DNA from: Flavobacteriales bacterium
Lineage (GTDB): Bacteria > Bacteroidota > Bacteroidia > Flavobacteriales > Schleiferiaceae
Length of the DNA: 42,946 nucleotides
NCBI GenBank assembly: GCA_012269745.1
Contig: JAAXJR010000033.1
Location: 62,267 to 105,212, forward strand
Reading direction: 5' to 3'
In this document: piece by piece, positions 24,539 through 30,623 of the stretch
Layout of the letters: each line of letters begins with the position of its first letter
Position numbering within the stretch: the first letter of the stretch is position 1
Position numbers and translations under genes: made by a program
Notes under the pieces: model-generated
What the model was told of the DNA's origin: nothing
The model's database searches: none
Seen by the model: the letters and a program-made list of their open reading frames with translations, nothing else

Positions 24539-27394
24539 TTAAAGCGAGTAGCGGAAGGTTAGTTTAAACGTTCTTCCCGGTGCCCAACGTGAGAAGTATG
24601 GAGAGAAGCTCTCGTAGCTCACGAAGATGCGGTCTCTGGTATCGTCCAAGATATTGTTGATACCGAAGCCCATCTGGTACTGGCGGTCTTCACCGAATGT
24701 TTTCATTAGGTTGAAGTTCAAGCTGTGGAAAGGAACTTCATAAACGTCTGGGTTATCGGCTACCCCTACGATGTAGAGTTTCTCGCCTTGGACGTTGTAG
24801 AACAATCCTCCTTGCCATCCCTTCTTTGGGTCATTGTAATTCAAGCCAACATTGACCATGTATGGACTCTGACCTTGCATAGGACGTAGCTCAGAAATCA
24901 CCTCACCCGTTCTTGCAGAAGCTACACGCGCTGCATATTCAGCAGAATCACGCGTTACGGCAGAGTAGATGTAAGAGAAGTTAGAATTGATTTCAAAGTT
25001 GTTCAATCCGATGAATCCAAGATTCTTACGTACTTCAAATTCTACCCCGGCAACGGTTGCATTACCTACGTTACGTGGCTGGAAGTTCGAAGGTGCAGCA
25101 GCAGAGTAAGCCACAAGCTCGATCGGATTCTGGAAGTACTTGTAGAATCCAGAAAGGGCAACAGTCTGACCGCCTTCGAAGAAGTATTCATAGCGTGCAT
25201 CCAAATTGCTAATAATGGTGTTTTGAAGATCGAGGTTACCAATGAAGGTGATACCTGTCAAGACATCCTCAATCTGTGCAGCCGATTTCTCCTTGAACGA
25301 AGGACGGGCTACCGTGCGGAACGCACCTAGACGAAGGTTGCTGTTCTCGTTCACGCTGTAGATGAAGTTGGCAGTAGGGAACAGGTTGAAGTTGTTCAGA
25401 ACAGGCTCCCAGTAGTAATTCAAACCGGTACCTGGCGCAGCAGCTTCTTGCTGGTCAACACCTGTGTAGAACTGGTCGTAGCGCTCTAAGCGAAGACCTA
25501 CGACTACCTTCATCAAAGCGTTCATGCTGAACTCCTCGTTTACATAAGCCCCGAAATTGCTTTGGATACCTTGGTAGGCATTGTTCGCTTCGTAGTTACC
25601 ACTGTAGTACGTTCCTGCGTCTGTACCAACATTCCAGATGTACGCATCTGATAGCAGGTCATCCGCATTGCCTGAAAGGGCAGGCAGGTCACCCATCGAT
25701 TTTGTACGCAACTGGTAGCGCAAGATTTCGTAATCACGGTATTTGAAGGTGTAGCTCGCACCGTACTTAAGTTTCGCATCGCGTCCACGAACCTCGTGAT
25801 TACGGGTTACATCGATGCGGTTCGAAAGGTTGAATTCGTTCAGGTTACGCCAGATTCTGTTTGGGAAACCTGTTTCACCCGGTGCAATTACAAACGCGTT
25901 GTCTTCGGTACGGAATGAAGTAGAGCGGATGTCTTTATCCGCAATACGGCTAAAGGTTGGTGCAATTCTCCAATCGATTTTCAAATCGTTGTCTTTACGG
26001 CTGTGCTGGCCATTGAAAAGCGCTGAAGTGATTGAACGCTCTGAATATTCGAGGTTGTCTCTCAAACCTTCGAAAGAGTTCTCGATAGAAGCTGTTTCGA
26101 TGAATCGACCCGTACGCGTCTCACCGTTTTGCAAGTGCATCAAGGTGAATCTGTACTTATCATTATCGTCTTTAATCGAGTAGCCGAATAGACCGCTCAT
26201 AAATACATTGCTCACTGCCAAAGACCCTTTTTGAGTGCGGTCGGCTAGCAAGTTGTATTGGTTCGGAAGGTTTCCTTTACGGTAGAAGTTTTGCTCGTAC
26301 ATGCGCGTCGAGTCGCCGCCTATACTGCCAAAGAAGTTGGTGTTGGCCTTATACGAGAACGATCCGTTGTAACCGATGGTCTTGCCGTTGTCCTTTTTGA
26401 TTTGGTTACCGCCGCTAATTCCTAGGGAACCGTTTACCGGCATTAATCGAGATTGCGCTGCAAGTACAGGTGCGAAGCTTTGGGTAAGCTCAGTGGTCGT
26501 TGGGTCGTCCAACGCTGGGTTTGGAATACCGCTGTAGATGTATTGATTTGGAAGTGGGTTGGTTCTAAAACCGCTGTCAAAACCTAGGAAATCTGTCATG
26601 GATCCTTGGTGTCCCAAGCCTTGAACAAGGTGCATCCCAGGAGTATAACCCAATGAGGAGCTGATGTTCAATGTCTTTTTCGTTGGAAAATCGACCAATT
26701 CAATATTCACCAAACCACCCGAGAAATCTGCAGGCAAATCTGCTGTAAGTGTTTTAAGAACGACGATGTTTTGAAGGATGTTCGTTGGGAAGATGTCCAT
26801 CTGCAATGAGTTACGGTCAGGATCCAATCCAGGGATGTCCATACCCATTAATTGTGTTTTTGTATAGCGATCACCCAAACCACGAACGAACACATATTTA
26901 CCACCTTGGATACTTACACCAGGTACACGCGTTACTGCTGCCGCCGCATTTCCATCACCAACACGCTTAAAGTTCTGTGCAGAGATACCGTCCATGACAG
27001 TAGCGCTTTTCTTCTTTACGTCGAGAAGTGCACTTTCAGTATTGCGCATAGCCGATGCAGTTACAGTTACTGTCATCAACTCATTAGTGGAAGGCATCAA
27101 GCGAAGGTTTTCAAAAGCAGTGACTTTGCCCGCTTCTACCTTCACATCTGAGATAGTCAATGTCGCTAGACCCAAAAAGCTGATCTCGAGATCGTAGGTG
27201 CCTGGCTCCAAGCTTAATTCAAAGTTTCCATCAAAATCTGTGAATGCCACAGCTCCCACAGAAGGGATTTGTGCGTTCGCGTAAAAGAGTGCTTCACTGG
27301 TTTCGTCTTCGTACACAGTTCCGCGGATAATACCATTCTGAGCGTAAGAAAGTACGCTGAATAGAAGTGCTGCAAATAGCGCTTTAATTTTCAT
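24539..27394 (-). CDS. TonB-dependent outer-membrane receptor with carboxypeptidase-regulatory-like domain
   Basis: A 951-residue outer-membrane transporter. Residues 1-18 form a signal peptide (cleavage near SYAQ). Residues of about 20-105 are a carboxypeptidase-D regulatory-like beta domain (GIIRGTVYEDETSEALFYAN). The plug follows with ATRVPGVSI-type and FVRGLGDRY motifs, and the rest is a beta-barrel ending in the aromatic C-terminus FKLTFRYSL. The reading frame extends to a GTG at 27427, but the ATG at 27394 begins the signal peptide. Upstream are a terminator hairpin and a three-unit 11-bp-phased array resembling a Pho box. Neighbouring PhoB/PhoR-like genes suggest a phosphorus-containing ligand; this is inference. 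A SusD partner is absent; the upstream lipoprotein may take that place. Confidence 0.93.
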   Translation of the reverse strand: MKIKALFAALLFSVLSYAQNGIIRGTVYEDETSEALFYANAQIPSVGAVAFTDFDGNFELSLEPGTYDLEISFLGLATLTISDVKVEAGKVTAFENLRLMPSTNELMTVTVTASAMRNTESALLDVKKKSATVMDGISAQNFKRVGDGNAAAAVTRVPGVSIQGGKYVFVRGLGDRYTKTQLMGMDIPGLDPDRNSLQMDIFPTNILQNIVVLKTLTADLPADFSGGLVNIELVDFPTKKTLNISSSLGYTPGMHLVQGLGHQGSMTDFLGFDSGFRTNPLPNQYIYSGIPNPALDDPTTTELTQSFAPVLAAQSRLMPVNGSLGISGGNQIKKDNGKTIGYNGSFSYKANTNFFGSIGGDSTRMYEQNFYRKGNLPNQYNLLADRTQKGSLAVSNVFMSGLFGYSIKDDNDKYRFTLMHLQNGETRTGRFIETASIENSFEGLRDNLEYSERSITSALFNGQHSRKDNDLKIDWRIAPTFSRIADKDIRSTSFRTEDNAFVIAPGETGFPNRIWRNLNEFNLSNRIDVTRNHEVRGRDAKLKYGASYTFKYRDYEILRYQLRTKSMGDLPALSGNADDLLSDAYIWNVGTDAGTYYSGNYEANNAYQGIQSNFGAYVNEEFSMNALMKVVVGLRLERYDQFYTGVDQQEAAAPGTGLNYYWEPVLNNFNLFPTANFIYSVNENSNLRLGAFRTVARPSFKEKSAAQIEDVLTGITFIGNLDLQNTIISNLDARYEYFFEGGQTVALSGFYKYFQNPIELVAYSAAAPSNFQPRNVGNATVAGVEFEVRKNLGFIGLNNFEINSNFSYIYSAVTRDSAEYAARVASARTGEVISELRPMQGQSPYMVNVGLNYNDPKKGWQGGLFYNVQGEKLYIVGVADNPDVYEVPFHSLNFNLMKTFGEDRQYQMGFGINNILDDTRDRIFVSYESFSPYFSRWAPGRTFKLTFRYSL

Positions 27395-27428: not shown

Positions 27429-27462
27429 AAAAAAGGCCCGAGACATATGTCTCGAGCCTTTT
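27429..27462. terminator. Bidirectional-looking terminator between lipoprotein and TonB receptor genes
   Basis: A 12-bp stem with one mismatch (27435-27446 with 27447-27458, centre CATATG) has six A on the left and four T on the right. It should end most transcripts from the lipoprotein gene before the receptor gene. Confidence 0.8.
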
Positions 27463-27486
27463 AATGTTCCTTTAACTTTATGTTAA
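27459..27486 (-). promoter_or_regulatory. Pho-box-like array upstream of the TonB receptor gene
   Basis: Read on the minus strand: TTAACA-N5-TTAAAG-N5-TTAAAA. The hexamers start at 27486, 27475 and 27464, an exact 11-bp period. It begins 10 bases after the lipoprotein stop and runs into the terminator stem. The Bacillus PhoP consensus is TTAACA-like hexamers with 5-base spacers, which it fits. Binding by the PhoB-like protein at 28912 is inferred. Confidence 0.55.
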
Positions 27487-27496
27487 GTGCGAGAGC

Positions 27497-28705
27497 TTAG
27501 AATGCGCCTTTCATAGCAGCATAGGTCCAAGCAAGCTTGCTTTCGTCAGCACCTACTGTAGGAGCAGTAACTACTGTAGCAAACATTGTAGGATCCCAAG
27601 CTGTAACAGCACCAGATTTATCCATAAATACTTCAGCGAGTGTTTTACCTGCTGTGTAGTTAGTCATATCGATTTCGATAGAAGCGAAGTTCAACAAACC
27701 GTTCTCGTAGTTGTAAGCACCACCAGTTTCGTCGATTTCCCAATCGCCTGCATCATCAAAACCTGTGATGTAGATGTTCTGAACCGTACCCATTGCTGAA
27801 TCGCGGAAATCTGCAATCTCTGCGTTCATACCGTATAGCGTTCCGTTGGTTGCGGTAAAGCCAGCACCCATTGTGCCTTCTGGACCATCTACTTCCATAC
27901 CGTGGTCAGAATCTGGACCCGCTACGTATACGAAGTTGTCTATAGTACCCGCGTAAGCCTGGTCGATGTCGTAGGCATCATCACCTTGCGCCCAAACGAC
28001 AATATTAGAAGCGTTTACTGTTCCTCCGAAGAATTCAACACCGTCATCCACGTTAGCAACAACTTCAATGTTGTTTACTACTGTCGCAGAACCTACACCT
28101 GCCAATGTAAGACCGTTGATTTCGTTACCGTCACCAATCAAAGTACCGCCGTGACGTACACTCACGTACTCAATAGAACCTGAGTTGTCAGCTGCGTCAG
28201 TTCCACCGTAAACTGCATATGACTCGTTTGCTGGAAGACCTTCAATAAGTGCAGTAGCGGCATCCGCTGAGATAGGTGCGTAACCCAATACTATCAAACC
28301 GCCCCAAAGACCTGCATCTGTTTCGTCTAGGTTTGTACCCGCTTGTTGACCAACTGTGATGTTGTCCAATACTGAAGTCATGATAATTGGAGCACTTTCA
28401 GTTCCCTGAGCGTCGATCATACCGCCTTGAGCGATGATCAAAGTAGATGCATTTGCACCGTCTCCTTCTTTACCTTTAATGATAGTTCCTGGTTCTATGG
28501 TAAGTTCTACACCTGCTGGAACAACAACACGACCATTGAGCACGTAGATAGAATCTCCGCTCCATGTTTCGTTAGCAGCTAGTACACCCGCCTTGTTTAC
28601 CTCTAAAGGGTTTACATTTGGATTAGTGCCACCGCCACCGTTTCCTTCACATGCAGCTAGGAGGGTTGCAGCTGCAGCAATAGTCATTAGTTTGTTGAAT
28701 TTCAT
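27497..28705 (-). CDS. Right-handed beta-helix outer-membrane lipoprotein, phosphate-regulon candidate
   Basis: A 402-residue lipoprotein. The lipobox LLAAC puts the lipidated Cys at residue 19; the next residues (EGNGGGGTNPN) are a flexible, acidic-glycine linker. The mature part has repeated short strands with Gly/Asn/Asp turns (LTIEPGTIIKG, LIIAQGGMIDAQG, IEYVSVRHGG, INGLTLAGVG, VDDGVEFFGG), typical of a parallel beta-helix. It is acidic with no visible catalytic triad. Homologous beta-helix proteins next to TonB receptors are common in Bacteroidota, sometimes misnamed multidrug transporters. Upstream is a three-unit Pho-box-like array and then a PhoB/PhoR-like pair, divergent. A surface binding or hydrolysis role for a phosphorus source is inferred. 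Confidence 0.85.
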   Translation of the reverse strand: MKFNKLMTIAAAATLLAACEGNGGGGTNPNVNPLEVNKAGVLAANETWSGDSIYVLNGRVVVPAGVELTIEPGTIIKGKEGDGANASTLIIAQGGMIDAQGTESAPIIMTSVLDNITVGQQAGTNLDETDAGLWGGLIVLGYAPISADAATALIEGLPANESYAVYGGTDAADNSGSIEYVSVRHGGTLIGDGNEINGLTLAGVGSATVVNNIEVVANVDDGVEFFGGTVNASNIVVWAQGDDAYDIDQAYAGTIDNFVYVAGPDSDHGMEVDGPEGTMGAGFTATNGTLYGMNAEIADFRDSAMGTVQNIYITGFDDAGDWEIDETGGAYNYENGLLNFASIEIDMTNYTAGKTLAEVFMDKSGAVTAWDPTMFATVVTAPTVGADESKLAWTYAAMKGAF

Positions 28706-28735
28706 TTTCGTCTAGTGTTTGATTTTTTGACACCA

Positions 28736-28743
28736 CAAACAAA
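28736..28743 (-). promoter_or_regulatory. -7-like box of the lipoprotein gene
   Basis: The minus strand reads TTTGTTTG, one change from TAnnTTTG. It lies nine bases downstream of the Pho-box-like array, the place where an activator would replace the -33 element. Predicted leader about 27 bases. Confidence 0.4.
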
Positions 28744-28752
28744 AGAGACTAA

Positions 28753-28780
28753 TGTTAATCCACAGTTAAGCGCTTGTGAA
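28753..28780 (-). promoter_or_regulatory. Pho-box-like array upstream of the lipoprotein gene
   Basis: Minus strand: TTCACA-N5-TTAACT-N5-TTAACA, with hexamers starting at 28780, 28769 and 28758, an exact 11-bp period. All fit the TT-A-A pattern of Gram-positive Pho boxes. It is in the 206-base gap with the PhoB-like gene. A -7-like element follows after nine bases. Confidence 0.6.
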
Positions 28781-28819
28781 CCTTCGGTAATTCGACATCA
28801 AAGAATTTTTATCGCAGTG

Positions 28820-28911: not shown

Positions 28912-29604
28912 ATGAAAGCTACTGGCGCCAAAATCTTATTAGTAGACGACGAACCGGATATCCTAGAAATCGTAGGATATAACCTCAAGAACGAAGGATA
29001 CCAAGTATATACTGCATCTAGTGGTAAAGAAGGTGTTGCTGTTGCTAAGGAAGTCAAGCCGGATCTCATATTATTAGATGTAATGATGCCTGAAATGGAC
29101 GGTATCGAGGCGTGCGATCAAATTCGCAGAGTGCCTGCCCTTGAAGGCACCATCATTGCTTTTTTAACTGCTCGCGGGGAGGATTACTCCCAGGTTGCCG
29201 GGTTTGAAGCTGGCGCGGATGATTACATCACTAAACCGGTTAAGCCGAAAGTGTTGACTTCACGATTGAAGGCGTTGCTGCGCCGCAGACCTACTGCAGA
29301 ACAAGAAGTGCCTGAACGTATGAGTCTCGGCGATTTAATTATTGACCCTGAGCGCTACCACATTGAATTAGGCGGTGAGGTTTTAGATTTACCAAGAAAG
29401 GAATTTGAGCTACTAAGTTTGCTTGCTTCAAAACCAGGTAAAGTATTTCCAAGAGAGGAAATTATGGACCGCATCTGGGGAACGGCGGTAATTGTAGGCG
29501 GTCGAACAATCGACGTACACATTAGAAAGCTCCGTGAAAAAATTGGCGACGACCGCATCAAGACGGTGAAAGGTGTAGGCTATAAATTTGAAGCGCAAGG
29601 TTAA
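28912..29604 (+). CDS. OmpR/PhoB-type response regulator
   Basis: A 230-residue DNA-binding regulator. The receiver domain (1-120) has the acidic pocket VDDEPD, phospho-acceptor Asp56 (LLDVMMPEMDG), Thr86 (FLTARGED) and Lys108 (YITKPVKP). The winged-helix output domain (about 130-230) shows LPRKEFELLSLLASKPGKVFPRE, GRTIDVHIRKLREKIG and a C-terminal TVKGVGYKFE. It is followed with a one-base overlap by its histidine kinase. The identity as PhoB rather than another OmpR-family member is supported by the Pho-box-like arrays in front of the neighbouring outer-membrane genes. Confidence 0.9.
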   Translation: MKATGAKILLVDDEPDILEIVGYNLKNEGYQVYTASSGKEGVAVAKEVKPDLILLDVMMPEMDGIEACDQIRRVPALEGTIIAFLTARGEDYSQVAGFEAGADDYITKPVKPKVLTSRLKALLRRRPTAEQEVPERMSLGDLIIDPERYHIELGGEVLDLPRKEFELLSLLASKPGKVFPREEIMDRIWGTAVIVGGRTIDVHIRKLREKIGDDRIKTVKGVGYKFEAQG

Positions 29605-30623
29605 TGGGCGTAGGTAGACTTCTTCCTGTTTCACTTGGCTTAGCTGTACTTTTTACTCTCACAGGCGTTCTATTTGTCTTTCTAGATGATCAATTCTTAG
29701 AGGTGCCAGATAGTATTTGGTACTTGCTGTTTTTTGCAGTGGTCTTTGTACTGATGCTAGTGGCCATTAACATCAACATTACCAAAAGAGTGCGTCGCAT
29801 TCAGAAGCGCATACACGAGAGTGGTGTGGATACCATGAGCGGTACTTCTCGAACGATGACCTTGGATAAGCTAGAAGAGGCAATAGGTGAATGGACGATG
29901 AAACAGGCCAGAGTAGTGCAGGAATTGGAAAGTCGTGAGGAATTCCGTCGTGAGTATATGGGCAATGTAAGTCATGAGCTCAAGACACCAATCTTCAATA
30001 TTCAAGGATATATCTTGACTTTATTAGATGGTGCCAAAGACGATCCAAAGATTGCTGCAAGATTCTTGAAGCGCGCTGCAAAATCGGTAGATCGCATGAC
30101 CTCGCTCATTAAAGATATGGACGTGCTTTCGAAAGTGGAGAGTGGTCAATATGATATTCGATTGGAGCCAGTGCAGTTAAACTTACTTATAGAGGATACG
30201 CTGCAAGGTGTGGAATCGTATGCGCGCAAGAACGACGCGAAGATTAGCGTAGATTTTGAGGTAGATGAGCGTGTTGACGTTTTGTGTGATAGTGCGCGAA
30301 TAGAGCAAGTGCTAGATAATCTAGTCGTTAACGCTATTAAATATAGTGACGATAATAAGAAGGTTAAAATCAAAGTGGAGGACTTGGAATCTAAGGTGCA
30401 AATAAGTATCAAAGACAACGGTTTCGGTATTCCTGAGAAAGACCTTGGTCGAATCTTTGAACGATTTTACCGTGTAGATAAGGCACGTTCTCGAGATGCC
30501 GGTGGATCCGGTTTGGGATTGTCTATCGTGAAGCACATTATTGATAAGCACAACCAGACCATCACAGTTACTTCTCAGGAAGGGAAGGGTACGACTTTCA
30601 AGTTTACCTTGAATAAGGCCTAA
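29604..30623 (+). CDS. PhoR-like sensor histidine kinase
   Basis: A 339-residue membrane kinase. Two helices (residues of about 7-27 and 38-58) enclose a very short periplasmic loop, so it probably senses through partners, as PhoR does, rather than by a ligand domain. The phospho-His124 is in NVSHELKTPIFN. The ATPase domain carries the N box (LDNLVVNAIKYS), G1 (KDNGFGIP), the F box (IFERFYRVDKARS) and G2 (GGSGLGLSIVKHI). There is no PAS domain. Its ATG overlaps the regulator stop by one base (TAATG). Confidence 0.9.
   Translation: MGVGRLLPVSLGLAVLFTLTGVLFVFLDDQFLEVPDSIWYLLFFAVVFVLMLVAININITKRVRRIQKRIHESGVDTMSGTSRTMTLDKLEEAIGEWTMKQARVVQELESREEFRREYMGNVSHELKTPIFNIQGYILTLLDGAKDDPKIAARFLKRAAKSVDRMTSLIKDMDVLSKVESGQYDIRLEPVQLNLLIEDTLQGVESYARKNDAKISVDFEVDERVDVLCDSARIEQVLDNLVVNAIKYSDDNKKVKIKVEDLESKVQISIKDNGFGIPEKDLGRIFERFYRVDKARSRDAGGSGLGLSIVKHIIDKHNQTITVTSQEGKGTTFKFTLNKA

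Follow-up and report, generated by a model that had tools for sequence, protein, structure and literature searches.

An array of 11-bp-phased hexamers that we found to head an operon in a Schleiferiaceae genome (order Flavobacteriales, assembly GCA_012269745.1) is, with a probability of roughly 0.86, a Pho box, that is, the predicted operator of the adjacent PhoB-like response regulator at a Bacteroidota-type sigma-A promoter. It is the Bacteroidota form of a known element. Pho boxes are placed just upstream of the -10/-7 promoter element, where they replace the -35/-33 element, which in Bacteroidota has a consensus of the TTG type. The array has the two or more tandem 11-nt direct repeat units of a Pho box, stands immediately upstream of a -7 element in the place of a -33 element (18 or 29 nt from TNAC to TTTG), and recurs across the phylum before phosphate-starvation genes (16 of 51 sites vs. 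none of 11 sites in a spacing control, three of which have a downstream open reading frame, ORF). In addition, the regulator beside it is the best PhoB candidate among the three OmpR-type regulators scanned in its genome and is paired with a PhoR-like kinase. "The window" is used below for the whole stretch of DNA that was analysed (42,946 nucleotides).

The array is located in the gap between the divergent lipoprotein and PhoB-like regulator genes (Table 1), and its first three units start exactly 11 bp apart on the minus strand, letter for letter as the earlier note on this DNA had read them. TTAACA (28758) is followed by nine bases (ttagtctct) and then by TTTGTTTG at 28743-28736, confirming the -7-like sequence that had been claimed nine bases past the last unit. 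The strictly conserved part of this element is TTTG, mostly TTTGC in the orthologues and TTTGT in the window, and not the whole of TTTGTTTG. According to the available part of PMC9723704, the flavobacterial -7 box is TAnnTTTG at -12 to -5; the window element reads TnnnTTTG, the A of TAnnTTTG being absent. TTTG starts 19 nt past the start of unit 3, and because this unit ends 13 bp before TTTG, the array occupies the expected place of the -33 element; no TTG-type -33 element was seen in the window promoter.

Table 1. Features of the array and its genomic neighbourhood, in window coordinates
Feature	Position	Strand	Remarks
TonB-dependent receptor gene, downstream of the lipoprotein gene	24539..27394	minus	PF00593, PF07715, PF13715
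Terminator-like hairpin in the lipoprotein/receptor gap	27431..27462	minus	1 found vs. shuffle mean 1.1; not significant alone
Lipoprotein gene, 402 aa (predicted target gene)	27497..28705	minus	
-7-like element TTTGTTTG	28736..28743	minus	conserved core TTTG at 28739-28736
Array unit 3, TTAACA, promoter-proximal	28753..28758	minus	start 28758; consensus TTWACA; fixed distance to TTTG
Array unit 2, TTAACT	28764..28769	minus	start 28769; TTAAC is the genus-weighted consensus (46 sites)
Array unit 1, TTCACA	28775..28780	minus	start 28780; read from the window
Fourth in-phase unit, ATTACC	28786..28791	minus	11 bp upstream of unit 1
Distal 11-bp-phased group, TTAACAATCCC-ATAACACTGCG-ATAAAA	28807..28834	minus	nearer phoB; 3 mismatches to the pattern
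PhoB-like OmpR-family response regulator gene	28912..29604	plus	predicted binder of the array
PhoR-like sensor histidine kinase gene	29604..30623	plus	HisKA, HATPase

The array probably comprises four units rather than three, plus a second, distal box. In the orthologues, the columns matching the fourth unit show a weak preference (T 0.65, A 0.75). The distal group is offset by 54 nt from unit 1 and is thus one base out of phase with the main array. A distal pair at 11-bp spacing is found in 31 of 46 orthologue upstream regions vs. at most 11 at any other spacing from 6 to 19, at positions that vary among the orthologues, and may represent a second operator or a site for phoB autoregulation. 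Another 11-bp-phased run with three mismatches (TTAACATAAAG TTAAAGGAACA TTAAAA, 27459-27486, minus strand) is found between the lipoprotein and receptor genes, overlapping the start of the terminator-like hairpin. The hairpin was also considered as a part of the array and rejected, as was an RNA element, since the array is upstream of the -7 box.

The earlier note had made its reading depend on conservation of the array in orthologous promoters, and there the array is indeed conserved. Our comparison drew on 75 homologues of the lipoprotein gene within the family and order of the window, selected among the genomes with a match, and used the DNA upstream of each. After inspection, 12 low-scoring or distant regions (nine f5, one g21, two f14) were excluded, leaving 63, two of which are cut short at contig ends (G077, G048). 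The pattern T.A-N8-T.A-N15-TTTG is kept in 45 of these 63 regions, compared to a mean of 0.74 and a maximum of 4 in shuffles (n = 300), and in none of the 12 excluded regions, i.e. in 45 of 75 over the full set. TNAC stands 18 nt from TTTG in 39 of the 63 regions and, a further turn away, 29 nt from it in 32; between 8 and 33, no other distance is seen in more than four regions. The genus-weighted consensus of 46 sites is TTnAnn / TTAACn / TTWACA / 13 bp / TTTGC. Among the aligned members, protein identities to the window are as low as 43%, and a divergent receiver-like ORF is found at 44 of the 63 loci. A strict pattern match is lacking in 18 of the 63 orthologues: four (G022, G118, G238, G292) keep the repeats with a varying TTTG, G040 has TTCG (by eye), G034 and G035 have units 1 and 2 in register and miss unit 3, two are the regions truncated at contig ends, and no array is visible in nine (G064, G066, five f10, one f6, and one f7). 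In G064 (L009) and G066 (L008), the lipoprotein gene is thus present without an array, and the divergent gene at L009 encodes a response regulator whose start differs from that of the PhoB-like type. Six loci (L015-L020, from G086, G069, G075, G063, G084, and G085) carry two lipoprotein copies in one open frame of 780-815 aa.

Counts within single genomes are less informative. Allowing at most three mismatches, TTMACWN5TTAACWN5TTAACW matches the window four times vs. 0.49 times per dinucleotide shuffle (largest 3, n = 100), and the array is the sole exact match in both the window and the whole genome, where at most two mismatches give three sites vs. six for the reversed control. These window and genome counts prove little because the site itself served as the source of the pattern.

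Across 392 genomes from the phylum of the window, scanning with TTAAC-N6-TTWACA-N13-TTTG and no gene information yielded 65 sites in 54 genomes at the 11-bp spacing (reversed pattern: 31), whereas the same letters at a 13-bp spacing gave 11 sites in 11 genomes (reversed: 25; 65 vs. 11, binomial p = 2e-10). Ten of the 65 sites lie inside open frames and four have no downstream ORF. Of the 51 remaining downstream ORFs, 47 were scanned against Pfam as a set; the others are the window's own gene (Pfam separately), L253 and L254 (orthologues of L252), and L283 (like L282). By Pfam alone, 16 of the 51 belong to phosphate-gene families, namely PhoU_div/DUF47 (PF01865, n = 9), PstS-type proteins (PF12849, n = 3), phosphate-selective porin O/P (PF07396, n = 2), 5'-nucleotidase (PF02872, n = 1), and a phytase-like family (PF13449, n = 1). 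Two further ORFs encode OmpR-type regulators with PhoB as the best model, below its cut-off. Receptor-type outer-membrane proteins account for 11 of the 51 (nine with a TonB plug, the OMP_b-brl_4 barrel protein at L257, and L283, unscanned and like L282), and the receptor-type site L246 is divergent from a PhoB-type gene. The other genes include one for a metallophosphoesterase, one for a histidine kinase, two resembling those of beta-helix lipoproteins (by eye), and the window's own, and for 17 sites the downstream gene shows no obvious relation to phosphate (aldehyde dehydrogenase, enolase, AraC, TetR, and others). Among the control sites, seven of 11 are inside open frames and three have a downstream ORF, none of which is a phosphate gene; with only three such ORFs in the control, the gene-class contrast draws mainly on the rarity of phosphate families. 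The expectation that 11-bp units would be found near phosphate genes is borne out for the five families listed above. PhoX (PF05787) had three weak matches in 11 genomes, and the array is upstream of none of these Flavobacterium candidates.

The scan also recovered units outside the searched letters. The motif nTnA occurs at -11 of 24 and at -22 of 20 of the 55 noncoding sites, compared to 17 and 12 at offsets -12 and -23 and at most 12 at all others between -30 and -4; for the ten coding sites the counts at -11 and -22 are 0 and 1. This recurrence suggests that the full array often has four units, as in the window. Two smaller groups of sites were seen in the same scan: in two congeneric genomes, L270 and L273 precede a small, conserved protein (~147 aa) that matches no Pfam family, and L252, L253, and L254 are equidistant matches ahead of similar genes for AraC-type regulators in three f5/g23 genomes, only L252 having been scanned.

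The gene across the gap, which had been proposed to encode a PhoB-like regulator, does encode an OmpR-family regulator that is PhoB-like by score. We call it PhoB-like because it misses the curated PhoB cut-offs (TIGR02154, 213.5 vs. 296.2; NF053854, 206.8 vs. 270), as does its counterpart in the Flavobacterium-like genome G356. Its genome has 21 receiver-domain matches, of which seven besides that of the window were taken and two of the seven scanned. The DNA-binding helix has the sequence RTIDVHIRKLR, identical in G356, vs. RTVDVHIRRLR in PhoB chains of the PDB, which we take to be those of E. coli, the aligned segment presumably being the recognition helix. For the adjacent kinase (29604), the best models are PnpS, PhoR, and WalK, all below cut-off. 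The receptor gene presumably starts at the ATG of MKIKAL, the listed ORF beginning at GTG 27427.

The array precedes the lipoprotein gene in the window, as the earlier note had described; its tie to that particular gene does not hold, since in Flavobacterium and relatives the receptor gene comes first, the lipoprotein gene second, and the array heads the receptor gene. Among 34 named Flavobacteriaceae loci, the receptor gene was recognised in 33, and the array is directly before it in 30 of these, the remaining three having their match before the lipoprotein gene; 28 of the 33 have a PhoB-type gene diverging from the receptor gene, 26 of them together with the array, 24 of the named loci (L129-L152) being close Flavobacterium-like relatives and not independent. 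Two loci (L159, L160) have little upstream sequence in the comparison. The array therefore marks the operon head whichever gene is there, the lipoprotein gene in the window and the TonB-dependent receptor gene in Flavobacterium, where G356 has the receptor-first cluster. The phoB-receptor-lipoprotein neighbourhood is old: the window and locus L122 of G356 share LuxE-like and TyrS-like genes on its flanks (the name TyrS-like being our assumption for the shared flanking gene). Identities between the window and Flavobacterium are 66% for the regulators and 40% over 282 aa for the kinases (both with G356), 26% for the receptors, and 37% over 213 aa for the lipoproteins.

Tandem direct repeats are common to many OmpR-family sites, so the array could instead be the operator of another OmpR-family regulator, for example one of envelope or redox stress, with phoB as a mere neighbour. 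The genome does encode at least two other OmpR-type regulators, and at three loci (L153, L154, L158) the array heads the receptor gene but no PhoB-type gene was detected over 1600 bases; there it may act at a distance from phoB. Findings from a published PhoP motif bear on this reading as well. In the available text of PMC9603813, the DAP-seq motif of Riemerella anatipestifer PhoP has TTTAACA as its most conserved bases, which fits the array unit and speaks for the Pho box, but the motif, from 583 peaks, is reported as ArcA-like; in that text, "Pho box" is nowhere used and "repeat" appears once, in a protein name. The mutant of that system is unlike a classical phoB mutant, with 8-fold more pstS according to the accessible part of PMC5399024, and because of this, R. 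anatipestifer PhoP and the window regulator may not be the same regulator. What makes control by a different regulator unlikely is the recurrence of the array before PhoU_div, PstS-type, phosphate-porin, 5'-nucleotidase, and phytase-like genes across the phylum, its persistence at the operon head despite the changed gene order, and the phosphate induction of the counterpart operon in F. johnsoniae (PMC8115612).

In that species, the PhoBR operon cluster (PUSIV, Fjoh_0541-0549) holds phoB, phoR, receptor, and lipoprotein genes together, as in the window, and is phosphate-induced; we read the array itself in close Flavobacterium relatives rather than in F. johnsoniae. On phosphate depletion, the receptor Fjoh_0545 rises by 8.02, the lipoprotein Fjoh_0546 (IPR011050) by 9.91, and PhoB (Fjoh_0544) by 3.06, values that are given under a column headed FC and are log2FC by the text of the paper (PMC8115612). 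The same study lists 95 phosphate-induced transcripts at log2FC > 4, describes its phosphate-responsive loci of unknown function as tightly repressed under nitrogen and iron limitation, and gives a value of 11.56 for Fjoh_4889 (FIII); the terms "Pho box" and "promoter" occur nowhere in it. Fjoh_0542 (OprP) is not induced (-1.3, not significant; PMC8115612). One array-bearing gene type, the oprP-type porin of G356, thus has an uninduced counterpart in F. johnsoniae, which counts against a Pho box.

In the mechanism that we propose, in which we infer the direction of control in the window's organism, the dimer arrangement, and the transcription start, low phosphate would cause the PhoR-like kinase to phosphorylate the PhoB-like regulator. 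Phosphorylated dimers would then bind the 11-bp direct repeats head to tail, one helical turn per subunit, and two dimers could cover the four units as ATTACC-TTCACA and TTAACT-TTAACA. With the -7 box at -12 to -5, unit 3 would extend from approximately -27 to -22 and unit 2 from -38 to -33, in the position otherwise taken by the -33 element, and transcription would start near 28731. The bound regulator would recruit RNA polymerase in place of the -33 element, producing lipoprotein mRNA and, past the terminator-like hairpin, some receptor mRNA. The distal pair may increase cooperativity or act on phoB, whose counterpart in F. johnsoniae is induced too. The activator layout that had been suggested for this promoter, with a PhoB/PhoP-type protein replacing the -33 element, is supported by the conservation of the array, its link to phosphate genes, and the induction of the counterpart genes in F. 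johnsoniae, the binding itself being predicted.

A phosphate-regulated promoter could also be one at which the array represses or anti-activates, the PhoB-bound block covering the -33 region. The overlap of the array with this region, where a bound protein could block the polymerase, and the higher pstS level of the R. anatipestifer mutant (available part of PMC5399024) would agree with this. We nevertheless regard it as very improbable, since a promoter with no TTG-type -33 element should be weak without an activator and since the F. johnsoniae counterparts go up by 8.02 and 9.91 (log2) while PhoB rises too (PMC8115612). Finally, that three similar hexamers met by chance in AT-rich intergenic DNA, where TTAAC-like words are frequent and single-genome counts are no higher than those of reversed controls, is scarcely credible and already contradicted by the phase and the distance to TTTG conserved across genera, as well as by the 65 vs. 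11 spacing contrast and the extra units outside the searched pattern.

With activation through a Pho box as the preferred reading, the array can be compared with the known sites. In the available part of PMC4415409, the Pho box consists of tandem 11-nt direct repeats, with approximately seven conserved and four less conserved bases and PhoB bound head to tail, and this tandem 11-nt structure is common to the sites of E. coli PhoB, Bacillus subtilis PhoP, and Streptomyces coelicolor PhoP and to the window array. The unit differs, being TTAACA/TTWACA in the array vs. CTGTCAT in E. coli and GTTCACC in S. coelicolor (same part of PMC4415409). For Bacteroides fragilis, the accessible text of PMC3547664 reports that PhoB binds the pstC promoter and that a phoB deletion strain has only trace pstC expression; binding was to a 512-bp fragment with no site given, and the words "motif" and "consensus" are absent from that text. 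For plcP clusters of marine bacteria, putative Pho boxes were predicted by bioinformatics, with no Bacteroidota consensus in the available part of PMC4796936. In keeping with the statement that Pho boxes are poorly defined in Bacteroidota, we found neither a description of a Bacteroidota Pho box nor a definition of a PhoB site in the open-access papers searched; subscription papers may hold one. The promoter context differs as well. The array stands at a fixed 13 bp from the -7 TTTG of Bacteroidota and often has four units, whereas known Pho boxes are combined with a -10 element of the TATAAT type.

In the window's family, a related pattern has 41 sites in 88 genomes vs. 12 for the reversed pattern, and 21 of the 41 are lipoprotein promoters. 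Two genomes of the window's genus with no lipoprotein match (G073, G078) have the array before a PF07396 porin gene. A PstS-type protein (PF12849, E up to 1e-20) was found in none of these 88 genomes and in 13 of 14 control genomes, and the phoB-adjacent lipoprotein gene is common in this family, in which PstS-type proteins were not found. The Flavobacterium genomes show no enrichment, neither with the strict pattern in three genomes (13 sites vs. 13 reversed) nor with the loose pattern in eight (139 vs. 221). Recurrent in the eight are the phoB-adjacent receptor promoter, the oprP-type promoter (8/8), and the FIII-type lipoprotein promoter (7/8); other repeated matches, which were not annotated singly, look coincidental. 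A perfect array is present in all eight, in G356 (L122 2035, minus strand) before the oprP-type porin gene adjoining phoR. At the second Flavobacterium lipoprotein promoter (L124, L127), TAAC precedes the last unit by 33 nt (three turns) or 22 nt, with the 13-bp gap to TTTG (by eye). Sites of this type occur in seven of eight Flavobacterium genomes with the phase kept in six, TAAC in G383 being 19 nt from the last unit, out of step with the 11-bp period; the genomic position of the lipoprotein gene leads us to equate its product with FIII, Fjoh_4889.

Taken further, TTAACA/TTWACA units repeated every 11 bp, with a gap of 13 bp between the last unit and TTTG, could form a general Bacteroidota Pho box that is recognisable from sequence alone, and in the window's family a TonB receptor and a beta-helix lipoprotein could replace the Pst transporter as the phosphate-controlled surface system, an extension whose odds we judge to be about even. 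If the general Pho box is true, the Pho regulons of the phylum, in which phosphate responses have so far been mapped by expression (F. johnsoniae, B. fragilis), become readable from genomes. With unit, phase, and distance to -7 as its definition, the site would allow regulon prediction in uncultured marine and soil lineages and would help to separate direct from indirect phosphate responses, e.g. those via ECF sigma factors. The array also offers a route to the design of phosphate-controlled promoters for Bacteroidota genetics.

The window lipoprotein, which has no Pfam match, is by position and homology (through G356 and L140) the probable counterpart of the F. johnsoniae FII lipoprotein. Its AlphaFold2 model consists mostly of strands (mean pLDDT 69, pTM 0.77), and the PDB matches of the model are mostly beta-helix proteins, weak (best E 1.3e-3) and carrying no weight. 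The low-phosphate Caulobacter lipoprotein that has been compared with the F. johnsoniae proteins is presumably ElpS. According to PMC8115612, it is 31-36% identical to FI-FIII; the available passages of that paper suggest glycan binding or hydrolysis for the relatives of the window lipoprotein and ascribe to a Caulobacter homologue an accessory part in phosphatase activity. ElpS of Caulobacter crescentus is a phosphate-starvation outer-membrane lipoprotein released by the type II system, according to the accessible part of PMC2996285.
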